This document shows positions 6,496-26,197 of a stretch of 38,536 nucleotides of DNA, piece after piece. Each line of letters opens with the position of its first letter. Within the stretch, counting starts at the first letter, position 1. The stretch covers positions 1 through 38,536 of the forward strand of contig CALZJF010000020.1 of the NCBI GenBank assembly GCA_945787885.1. The letters are read 5' to 3'. Under the pieces are notes generated by a model that worked only from the letters and a program-made list of their open reading frames with translations, had not been told where the DNA came from and searched no databases. The DNA is from an uncultured Bacteroidales bacterium (GTDB lineage: Bacteria; Bacteroidota; Bacteroidia; Bacteroidales; Bacteroidaceae). Made by a program: the position numbers and the translations under genes.

Positions 6496-6560
6496 GTGGC
6501 AATAGATGTGGCGATGGATGGTGTATGGGTGGGGTTCTATATAATATTCCCACCGTCAAA

Positions 6561-6724
6561 AAGGTTAATAACTATGGGCTGACGTTTTGCCATCTATTTG
6601 GATTCTTTGCGGCCCAAGCTGCAGGTTGGCTCGGTCACGCAGCTCGCGCTACGCTCTCTCCTTTGACTTGCAGCTTGACCTCGAAGATAATTCCAAAATC
6701 TGACAAGGCTGACTGATAGAACCC
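6561..6724 (-). repeat. Palindromic intergenic element, copy 1
   Basis: An imperfect palindrome filling most of the dapB-lepB gap. A central stem pairs 6616-6626 with 6666-6676 (11 pairs, one G-U). Between them lies the apical hairpin, CGCAGC/GCTACG at about 6638-6653, with one mismatch. The outer arms (TGACGTTTTG near 6590 and CAAAATCTGACA near 6694) are also inversely similar. The element aligns along its length with 17621-17782, and homology to that copy extends left to about 6541. Read in the sense of the flanking minus-strand genes, it carries the shared core GAGCGTAGC...CGTGAC. Confidence 0.75.
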
Positions 6725-6727
6725 GCC

Positions 6728-16993: not shown

Positions 16994-17371
16994 CTACGCC
17001 TTCTCTGTAGCCTGACCAGCCTTGCCGCGTCTCAGCACCAGCTCCAGCACACTCAGGCATGCCATGAACTCCCAGAATCGCAGCAGTTGATGGTCATATT
17101 GATAGCAGAGGATGATTCCCAGGATACTGATGGCTAAATCTGCAAGACACGGCCAAAAGCCTCTGCCCTGCATCAACGTCTGCAAAAAGTTTTTTCCACT
17201 ATTGATTGTCAGGCGCCCAAAGGTGCTGACGGCGAGGACTACACACAGTCCCATCAGAATCCACAACGTCTTGTACCCCACCTCGCTGTCTCCGACGACG
17301 GGCATAATGGCAAAGAGCAGGATGAACAGACGGAAAAGCGCGCTTGGCACGCTAAACACAAACTTCTTCAT
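16994..17371 (-). CDS. Small integral membrane protein, function unknown
   Basis: A 125-residue hydrophobic protein starting MKKFVFSVPSALFRLFILLFAIMP, with about four predicted membrane segments (about 10-27, 36-52, 70-90, 94-112) and a charged C-terminal tail (RRGKAGQATEKA). The ATG at 17371 is preferred to the upstream one at 17461, whose extra 30 residues are AT-rich and lack coding character. I recognise no family with confidence; it resembles generic four-helix membrane proteins of unknown function. It ends at the shared terminator and has an AT-rich upstream region. Confidence 0.65.
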   Translation of the reverse strand: MKKFVFSVPSALFRLFILLFAIMPVVGDSEVGYKTLWILMGLCVVLAVSTFGRLTINSGKNFLQTLMQGRGFWPCLADLAISILGIILCYQYDHQLLRFWEFMACLSVLELVLRRGKAGQATEKA

Positions 17372-17620
17372 GGTGATAAGCAAATAATAAAAATTATTTT
17401 TATAGTAAATAAAGTAGGTTATTATGATGGTTTGTATGTTTGAACGCTTTCTTTGGCGCATCCTTTAGCCGTGAGAACAGTCATGGTTCACCTATTATTT
17501 TGGACCCAATAATATAAGCTCGCTCCTTTACTTCAAGGCTAAGACCTGCATCCAAATGGAGCATTCTAACATAAAAATCATTTTCGTCACCTACTTATAA
17601 TATAAATTACCTCCGTTAAA

Positions 17621-17782
17621 AGGGTTTATAATTATGGTTTGACGTTTTGTCATCTTTTGGCTTCTTTTCGGTTCAAATTGCAAGTCTCATCGGTCACGTA
17701 GCCCGCTACGCTCCCTCTTCAACTTACAATTTGAACTCGAAAATAATCTCAAAATCTGACAAAGCTAATTGATAGAAGCAAC
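17621..17782 (-). repeat. Palindromic intergenic element, copy 2
   Basis: The central stem pairs TTCAAATTGCAAGT (17672-17685) with ACTTACAATTTGAA (17722-17735), 13 of 14 paired, and continues through TTTTCG/CGAAAA. The apex is a perfect CGTAGC/GCTACG hairpin at 17697-17710. The outer ends are inversely similar (TTTATAATTA on the left; TCTATCAATTA when the right end is reversed). It is the closest relative of copy 1; the stem arms differ by compensatory substitutions. The core reads in the sense of the minus-strand genes on both sides. Confidence 0.75.
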
Positions 17783-17984
17783 CATAAGAGATTAAATGAA
17801 TAATATGAGCAACAGAAAAAGTGTTATTGCATGGCAAAAATAGTTCTTTATGGCGAACAGGACAAATAAAAACGCAGATATTTTTACACGTTTTTTACAC
17901 CTTCTACACACGTCGGATTGCAGAAAGCTGACATTCAAAAGGTTAGAGAGCGAATACACCTTTTTTACACTTTTGGGGAAAACG

Positions 17985-24955: not shown

Positions 24956-25016
24956 CGGGGATGCTGACGCCCCCATCTTTTGCACTTTCCTCTTTCTCTG
25001 ACACCCTATTTTTTTA

Positions 25017-25203
25017 GTAGGTTCTATAAATTAGCTTGCGATGTATTTGCGACTATCGTGCCGTAGGTTTTTGTTTTTCACGAAGGAGCGTAGCGGGCTA
25101 CGTGACTGAATGAAAGACAAAAAGATACGGTGCGAGAGGCGTGAAGACATCCAAGCAAGACAGAAACACTGCCTTACATTGAAAACTAATTTATAGAACC
25201 TAC
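25017..25203 (+). repeat. Palindromic intergenic element, copy 3, with perfect 18-bp terminal inverted repeats
   Basis: The ends GTAGGTTCTATAAATTAG (25017-25034) and its exact complement (25186-25203) form 18-bp terminal inverted repeats. An inner stem pairs 25061-25080 with 25111-25130 (18 of 20), and the apex carries CGTAGC/GCTACG at about 25088-25102 inside the shared core. The stem arms are unlike those of the other two copies in sequence but equally self-complementary. The core reads with the plus-strand genes queA and folK. Confidence 0.8.
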
Positions 25204-25222
25204 CTTTTCTTCCGCACACACC

Positions 25223-26197
25223 ATGCTCTTATACGTAGGATTAGGCTCAAACTTAGGGGAGCGCGAGGAGAACATCCGCCGCGCCGCCCAGCTCATCAGC
25301 GAGCGCGTGGGGCAACTGCTGAAGTGCTCCTCCATCTATGAATCTGCCCCCGTGGATATGAAGACGGACAATATGTTCCTCAATGCCGTGGCTCTCTTCG
25401 AGACGGACATGGAGGCGCACGAGATTCTCCGCATCACGCAGCAGATAGAGCGCGAACTCGGGCGTACGCAGAAAAGCGATGCCCGACACTACGACCGCAC
25501 CATCGACATCGACCTCCTGCAGTATGGCGACCTCAATTTCGAGGAGGCCGAACTCACGCTGCCTCACCCCATGGTGCCGGAACGGAAATTCGTCCTTGAA
25601 CCCTTGGTGGAAATAGACCCCGATGCCCGCTTCATGGCACCGCCCTTCCCCACCTTCGCACAGCTGCTGGAGGATTTCGACACGGCAGAAATCACGGTGC
25701 CTACGGAGCCGCTGCCCATCGACTGGCGCGCCGTCAATTTCCTCCTCAGACAGCTCTCGCCGGGCAAGAGCATCACCTGGACGGACTATCAGCAGCTGTT
25801 TGAAACCCCTAACACCTATCTCGTCTTCCTCTCTGACTATGTGGAGGACGTCAAGCGGCGCGTGGGAATGGCCACGCTCTGCATCACGCAGTCGCCCACG
25901 GGGAGAAAGGCGTGGGTGGAAGACCTCGTCATCGACCAGCCCTTCCGCGGCCGCGGACTGAGCCATCGCCTGCTGGCCTGCCTGAAACTCAAGGCGGCGG
26001 AGATGGGCGTGCGGAAGCTGATGCTCACTTCGCGCCCCGTGCGAGTGGCGGCCAACCGCCTCTATCAGCATGAGGGCTTCGAACGCCGGGAGACGAACGT
26101 CTATGCCTTTGAGATTCTGCCCGGCGACATCGAGGCCTACAGGCTCGCCACCAACGGGCAACGGCTGAAATGCGTCGGGCCGCTGCTGACGGACTAA
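25223..26197 (+). CDS. folK: HPPK (FolK) fused to a GNAT acetyltransferase domain
   Basis: A 324-residue fusion. Residues 1 to about 150 are 6-hydroxymethyl-7,8-dihydropterin pyrophosphokinase, a folate synthesis enzyme: LLYVGLGSNLGEREENI, SSIYESAPV, the Mg-binding RHYDRTIDIDLL (D95, D97) and LPHPMVPERKFVLEPL. Residues about 175-310 have the GNAT acetyl-CoA fold: VGMATLCITQSPTGRKAWVEDLVID, the P-loop-like RGRGLS (R242-S247) and AANRLYQHEGFERRETNVY. Free-standing FolK ends at about residue 160. There is no stop or frame change between the parts, so the fusion is real in this sequence. The GNAT substrate is unknown. Confidence 0.9.
   Translation: MLLYVGLGSNLGEREENIRRAAQLISERVGQLLKCSSIYESAPVDMKTDNMFLNAVALFETDMEAHEILRITQQIERELGRTQKSDARHYDRTIDIDLLQYGDLNFEEAELTLPHPMVPERKFVLEPLVEIDPDARFMAPPFPTFAQLLEDFDTAEITVPTEPLPIDWRAVNFLLRQLSPGKSITWTDYQQLFETPNTYLVFLSDYVEDVKRRVGMATLCITQSPTGRKAWVEDLVIDQPFRGRGLSHRLLACLKLKAAEMGVRKLMLTSRPVRVAANRLYQHEGFERRETNVYAFEILPGDIEAYRLATNGQRLKCVGPLLTD

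Follow-up and report, generated by a model that had tools for sequence, protein, structure and literature searches.

The non-autonomous transposons known as MITEs are commonly regarded as depending on their ends alone. Porphyromonas gingivalis belongs to the order Bacteroidales, the host order of the elements presented here. A MITE of that species, similar to ours in being a MITE of the same order, differs, by the available part of the source, in carrying a minisatellite (PMC4596501). The BOX, RUP and SPRITE repeats of Streptococcus pneumoniae are small, interspersed, multi-copy elements with transcripts that are predicted to fold and are thought to affect co-transcribed genes; the elements here share their small size, their multiple copies and their predicted folding when transcribed but have another host and another sequence, and the accessible portion of that report mentions neither a tandem-GA cap nor a cap common to the three families (PMC3049150). 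Correia/NEMIS and ERIC elements are also MITEs whose folded transcripts can alter the fate of mRNA, through RNase III or RNase E, although the available parts of the sources contain no mention of a covarying cap common to families with different ends (PMC10969869, PMC3049150). REP/BIME elements of the RAYT type resemble ours in combining a hairpin with a 4-base tag, in their intergenic location and in their alternative complementary stems, whereas REPs, in the part of the review available, are tied to a Y1 enzyme; here no link to Y1 was found, and the hairpin lies within elements that have inverted ends (TIRs) and target duplications (TSDs) (PMC3733652). MITEs with folded transcripts and tagged REPs with alternative stems are thus already known, while a tandem-GA cap across MITEs with different ends is not described in the literature found, in so far as these sources were accessible (PMC10969869, PMC3049150, PMC3733652), and none turned up in the literature searched, mostly outside subscription journals. 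The initial annotation of this DNA knew of no described family with such a core, and that still holds for the same literature and for Rfam: Rfam 15 gave no match above the gathering threshold in the window and, at four loci, ten matches at E up to 1, all under the gathering score, and in a letter search of the literature, where 62 papers contain at least one core fragment, a 15-base fragment of the core had no occurrence in the 10 papers listed.

The window, by which we mean the whole 38,536-nucleotide stretch of DNA that was analysed, contains three palindromic elements that had been picked out by the initial annotation and are confirmed by direct reading of the sequence (Table 1). The compensated pairs reported between copies 1 and 2 are likewise correct, in that G6618-C6674 has become A17677-T17730, C6619-G6673 has become T17678-A17729, and the G.U pair at 6624/6668 is A-T at 17683/17724, and in all three copies the core does have the sense of both neighbouring ORFs. 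By Pfam, the neighbours of copy 3 are a gene for queuosine synthesis and an HPPK/GNAT gene, copy 1 comes after a DapB gene, and copy 2 is flanked by a gene for a TPR protein and an ORF of 155 aa (16994-17461) that has no Pfam match, the other five of the six neighbours of the three copies having one. Folded as RNA, copies 3, 2 and 1 have z-scores of -10.7, -7.5 and -3.1 (200 shuffles each), with 0/200, 0/200 and 1/200 shuffles folding equally well. What did not stand was the description of these elements as a three-copy family. This was too small, as the core GGAGCGTAGCGNGCTACGTGAC has 128 exact matches in the 2.7-Mb draft source genome (the reversed core pattern, used as a control, has none), and it was also too inclusive: copies 1 and 2 do belong together, in a minor family that we call B, but copy 3 belongs to the main family, A, so its different arms reflect a different MITE family and not drift inside one. 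Copy 1 has no match to the pattern GGAG..TGAC and stands outside all pattern-based counts given below.

Table 1. Features of the three elements and the adjoining fragment, in window coordinates; the boundaries of all three elements were set by eye.
Feature	Position	Strand	Description	Basis or remark
Copy 3	25016..25204	+	Complete family-A MITE, 189 bp	Sequence, family alignment, TSD statistics
TIRs of copy 3 (position of the element)	25016..25204	+	(A/G)GTAGGTTCTATAAATTAG..CTAATTTATAGAACCTACC	
Flanks of copy 3	25012-25015 and 25205-25208		TTTT on both sides	Boundaries set by eye; the flanking TTTT sits within T runs
Apical core of copy 3	25085..25106	+	GGAGCGTAGCGGGCTACGTGAC, tandem G.A hairpin	Exact core
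Copy 2	17602..17783	-	Family-B MITE	By-eye comparison with other B copies
Right TIR of copy 2 (position of the element)	17602..17783	-	Lost at the junction with the family-C fragment	
Apical core of copy 2	17693..17714	-		Exact core
Left half of a family-C MITE	17511..17601	-	Adjoins copy 2; TIR TAAGTAGGTGACGAAAAT...; stops at its own GGAGC	Assigned to family C by eye against other family-C copies
Copy 1	6528..6727 (about)	-	Degenerate family-B MITE, immediately 3' of a dapB-like stop codon	
Core of copy 1	about 6634-6661	-	Degraded	

The elements of the window are MITEs, as their inverted ends, target duplications and many copies establish, which bears out the earlier suggestion that they are MITE-like; they are presumably moved in trans by transposases encoded elsewhere. 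Both TIRs are recognisable in 73 of 84 distinct source-genome copies, and among source-genome elements taken by their ends and 180-200 bp long, a 4-bp direct TSD flanks 65 of the 83 full-length family-A copies as against 7/83 when flanks are swapped between copies. A length of 189 bp is found in 71/83 family-A elements and the longest stop-free run in the family-A consensus is 57 aa; short, non-coding, many-copy elements with TIRs and TSDs count as MITEs without a known parent. Family A predominates among the copies examined, which differ from the consensus at 1-4% of sites, and it looks recent, many of its copies being near-identical as in recent bursts. Because draft contigs end within family-A copies (L184, L186, L187 and L336-L339), the family seems to break the assembly and its copy number is a lower bound. 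Family C accounts for 26 core matches, with GGAGCATAGC..GCTATGTGAC, and has the ends TAAGTAGG..CCTACTTA; by eye, the flanks of 24 of 25 copies have TA on either side and no longer duplication, and this TA could either be duplicated target or belong to the ends themselves. Compared by eye, the ends of A and of a 184-bp form of C agree at 15 of 20 positions, so the transposition systems of the two families may be distantly related. Rearranged copies also occur. In the family-A copies of L016 and L090 the two arms have the opposite orientation with respect to the core, and there are chimeras with B on the left and A on the right (L034, core at 1039) or A on the left and C on the right (L059, core at 44), in each of which the switch falls within the core, and with C on the left and A on the right, switching in the left arm (L035, core at 1043). 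The chimeras look as if recombination or template switching had used the common sequence, and those that switch in the core suggest one route by which the module could pass between families.

What the families have in common is a cap, GGAG-[6 bp]-loop-[6 bp]-TGAC, on a long imperfect stem with tandem G.A (GA/GA) loops. With one mismatch allowed, this pattern occurs 267 times with sufficient flank in the loci collected (a count in which overlapping loci enter twice), and these occurrences form 25 arm groups at a cut of 60% ungapped flank identity. From these we aligned 36 representatives, gap-free, at most three per group and restricted to the loop length of the window core. In this alignment 86.5% of the 792 cells at 22 pairs (14 arm, 8 cap) are paired and both sides have changed at 20 pairs, in 179 cells; controls in which the pairing was slid have 37.6-43.6% paired and 44-80 both-side cells, and none of 500 shuffles reached the observed values. 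Relatedness inflates such counts of covariation, but the sliding control preserves relatedness. The interior of these MITEs is thus one conserved folded strand, with a stem kept by compensatory change, and since G.U cells outnumber A.C cells (66 vs 20) it is the core sense strand that has the conserved fold. For copy 3 the predicted RNA fold is -50.1 kcal/mol in the sense and -29.7 in the antisense direction, and the DNA fold -26.8 kcal/mol for the sense strand against -15.2 for the other; the GC skew of the sense strand is positive in 23/25 groups. Of the inference made initially, that selection acts on a folded RNA or cruciform and not on the letters of the arms, the conserved pairing between families upholds the fold; a dsDNA cruciform or operator is disfavoured by the lack of complementarity between GGA and GAC and by the excess of G.U over A.C, and the operator idea was abandoned on the first of these grounds.

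Among symmetric 2x2 loops in the folds of 25 representatives, 60/73 are GA/GA, or 36/49 when the 24 cap loops fixed by the pattern are left out, a proportion to be read knowing that the energy model favours GA/GA loops; in the raw letters, two bases outside the core, A/G or G/A are opposed in 23/25 and a standard pair is found in 2/25. A kink-turn has a 3-nt bulge beside tandem G.A. It was considered and rejected here, the cap loop being symmetric 2x2 in 24/25 predicted folds, in which the nine asymmetric (3,2) loops lie elsewhere, outside the cap. As the search pattern itself prescribes GGAG and TGAC, their invariance in the pattern set proves nothing. Elements selected by their TIRs form a more independent set, albeit one drawn in part from loci that the core had originally retrieved, and here the exact core is present in 82/90 elements of the source genome and 41/61 of other genomes. 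Among the 20 from other genomes without it, 15 retain GGAG and TGAC, four have one or the other altered (L208, L211, L212 and L226) and one, L217, has its core interrupted by an insertion. A fully compensated stem, CGGTGC..GCACCG (cap GGAGCGGTGCGGGCACCGTGAC), occurs in seven TIR-selected elements, which come from two genomes only and so perhaps represent one event, and TGTAGC..GCTACA in three TIR-selected elements of other genomes.

Across 41 genomes in the genus the exact core is present in 11, one of them the source, and eight of the 11 have five copies or fewer. Cultured carriers include Prevotella sp. P5-108 and Prevotellamassilia timonensis. A scan of named genomes gave at least 85 stretches with the core, the listed matches being mostly from Bacteroidales (Prevotella, Bacteroides, Muribaculaceae, Mediterranea and others), together with MAGs labelled Lachnospiraceae, and the core also occurs in one viral contig. 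When 198 genomes from the phylum were searched with a covariance model, only the source genome had matches, with 26 candidates per genome scored among the matches listed, so that this search is weak on absence. Several of the core elements in other genomes have different TIRs, and where their ends pair the duplications are of 4 bp or of 3 bp, TAA/TTA (TWA), with the proviso that in many stretches the ends could not be paired and that such short matches may be chance. The same cap is therefore found in MITEs with different ends and flanks: 4 bp, 3 bp TWA, and TA or none. In the Lachnospiraceae-labelled MAGs (L374-L383, genomes G246-G248) the elements that contain the hairpin have TIRs of other kinds (GACTGTCCGAAAACG; TAGTGGAGCGTTTCAATGACT); the three genomes have 1, 5 and 12 covariance-model matches, and a multi-copy type in one of them, GGAGTCGTAGCGGGCTACGACGAC, has G-C instead of G.U beside the tandem G.A. 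The family name is that of the MAG labels and mis-binning is possible, so this is perhaps an occurrence in Lachnospiraceae.

How mutations are distributed can be seen in a set gathered blind to the core, comprising 93 of the 97 exact left-TIR sites on contigs C1-C29, of which 72 are full-length A-like copies. Departures from the consensus number 14/1512 in the core (loop base excluded), 127/3527 and 206/5470 in the arms and 39/1296 in the right TIR. Singletons are as frequent in the core as in the arms of the 72 copies (10/1512 vs 77/9000, p 0.54), whereas variants found in three copies or more affect 0/21 core columns as against 34/125 arm columns (p 0.004). With four copies or more the contrast is 0 vs 22 columns (p 0.044), and with five or more, 0 vs 16, it is not significant (p 0.13). 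Core mutants arise, then, yet have founded no visible sub-lineages. Within the 12 columns of the cap stem singletons are rarer, 1/864 vs 77/9000 (p 0.014), which hints that standing copies are under constraint. Nor is the core alone in its conservation, since columns 113-133 in the right arm of the family-A consensus (GCGAGAGGCGTGAAGACATCC) are conserved as strongly. Most copies identified through their ends retain the hairpin, but there are also core-less deletion derivatives of family A, 61-105 bp long (L181, L182, L185, L188, L189, L190, L386 and L397, forms of 79, 80 and 101 bp included), of which 10/11 have exact 4-bp TSDs and several have the same deletion junction at different sites. 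They have therefore moved, and transposition can do without the hairpin.

The initial annotation had regarded copies inserted randomly with respect to strand and inside genes as the mark of a plain MITE. With genes taken from an in-house ORF caller and replication direction uncontrolled, 111 cores of the source genome fall into 58 gaps between tandem genes (42 sense, 16 anti), 15 divergent and nine convergent gaps, one ORF and 28 locus edges, so that only 1 of the 83 placeable cores is intragenic. The copies are thus intergenic in 82/83 cases and, in the source genome, biased to the sense strand. A wider hairpin pattern at more loci gave 52:16 sense to anti, and de-duplication by host flank 58:18, the rest of that set being 32 without a neighbour, 16 divergent, 12 convergent, one inside a gene and three too short; in other genomes the ratio is 37:26 and not significant (p 0.21). 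Binned by the gap between genes, element included, the source-genome ratios are 25:4 below 300 bases, 15:1 from 300 to 400, 9:8 from 400 to 600 and 9:5 above 600. Below 400 bases this makes 40:5 as against 18:13 at 400 or more (Fisher p 0.0026), a cut picked after the bins had been seen; a cut at 350 bases gives p 0.065 and a rank test on the gap 0.062. The orientation bias at closely spaced tandem genes points to an effect in transcripts. However, core-less derivatives follow the trend of full-length copies, with seven sense, two anti, two convergent and one divergent, numbers too small to be decisive, and the bias is thus not creditable to the hairpin and may have another source.

The best reading of these data is a selfish module, folding as RNA or ssDNA, that aids the amplification or tolerance of MITEs, rather than a domesticated regulator, and we favour selection that acts chiefly through the success of the elements. 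In its more specific form, which we advance tentatively and judge to fall a little short of probable, the module folds as RNA and makes MITE insertions in transcripts tolerable. The cap would be untied to any single transposase and would act while the sense strand is in single-stranded form, most probably as RNA from a MITE within a transcript. Being rigid, poor in C and rich in purines, its fold could make insertion between co-transcribed genes tolerable, with little polarity or cleavage, and lineages with an intact fold would leave more surviving daughter copies. Evasion of Rho or of RNases and protein binding are candidate routes; as the sense RNA is C-poor and the antisense would expose UC loops, Rho is suggested as one possible partner. 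Counted against this reading are the movement of core-less forms (10/11 with TSDs) and their 7:2 orientation, private core mutations as frequent as those in the arms, the non-significant bias in other genomes, the post hoc cut at 400 bases, the p of 0.13 at five copies, the four altered and one interrupted among the 20 non-exact cores, the possible relatedness of the A and C transposition systems, and the ORF caller and uncontrolled replication direction behind the orientation counts. Wider still, and rather more doubtful in our estimation, is the proposal that the structured module GGAG..TGAC, with its repeated tandem G.A, is a transposase-independent helper of selfish DNA, an RNA making MITEs compatible with transcription, that has been passed among the MITEs of several kinds of transposase in Bacteroidales, perhaps also Lachnospiraceae, partly by recombination in the cap. 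A covarying interior across families with different ends and flanking duplications, possibly in two phyla, implies selection on something beyond the ends; the GA/GA loops and cap mutants provide a testable handle on the survival of non-autonomous elements in operons or on their amplification, and a recognisable RNA or ssDNA motif would, if this is true, be added to genome annotation.

The strongest rival is a fold of single-stranded DNA, on the lagging strand or in excision, that would bring the ends together, serve as a binding site for a protein of the host or of the element and raise transposition, with transcription irrelevant. Constraint seen on shared variants and not on single copies is what it would lead one to expect, and the sense DNA strand of copy 3 does fold better than its complement. 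G.A and G.T pairs stabilise DNA folds, and a change from C-G to T-A across a 2-base loop, in 1/36 sequences, would also fit DNA. Nevertheless, we consider this reading unlikely, as it does not lead one to expect a sense bias focused at close tandem genes, one cap serves ends with differing flanking duplications, and core-less forms still move.

An element used by the host in mRNA, whether to stabilise 3' ends, to mark a processing site or to bind a protein, was among the initial suggestions and would be in keeping with the intergenic, sense-biased location in the source genome, the strong RNA fold and the rarity of singletons in the 12 cap-stem columns. The core as a whole, however, has no deficit of private mutations, which speaks against domestication as an mRNA regulator, and the patchy occurrence across the genus, low copy number in most of the genomes concerned and burst-like, near-identical copies make such a role improbable. 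Plain MITEs, with no selection on the fold, could have inherited their pairing or renewed it by template switching between the arms, as long palindromes are corrected in this way (quasi-palindrome correction), and the recombinant and inverted copies (L034, L016, L090 and L059) are the kind of product this would leave. Correction of this type would, however, erase the GA/GA mismatches, which recur at similar places in many groups, and the excess of G.U over A.C needs a strand-specific cause, so we give this explanation very little credence.

An autonomous parent with the same ends was not found through three transposase families, PF01609, PF01797 and PF13358. PF01609 and PF13358 have no match in the source genome, and in eight other genomes PF01609 has 46 matches, 30 loci of which were inspected and have no matching ends. 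Eight contig-end TIRs lead into family-A sequence and not into a parent, TIR scans of viral contigs gave 0, 2, 0 and 7 stretches with no second end beside a gene, and copy 3 has no match in plasmid and phage collections. The Y1 transposase (PF01797) has matches in 8/13 core-bearing genomes, but no linkage of a Y1 (RAYT) gene to the hairpin was found at the 11 loci examined except at one, the source-genome locus of a 21-bit, below-cut-off match, with a family-C MITE. GGAG counts, to our knowledge, as a variant REP tag, and REPs are not known to have TIRs or TSDs. REPs are defined, in the available part of the review, by a palindrome of 20-40 nt together with a tag of the GTAG type (PMC3733652). 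That GGAG and the 22-nt hairpin form a REP element of a RAYT system is most improbable given these Y1 loci and an element that embeds the hairpin between TIRs and bears TSDs.

Two further observations concern the sequences around the core and the neighbourhood of copy 3. In L001, L005, L111, L131, L172 and L221 a different repeat, with letters like TTGTCGTCGG and GCTTTCGCCTTCCTC, sits in the left arm or takes its place, and this repeat is common to elements of different families and genomes. In the window, at 25223-26197, a folK-like HPPK domain is fused to a GNAT acetyltransferase domain.
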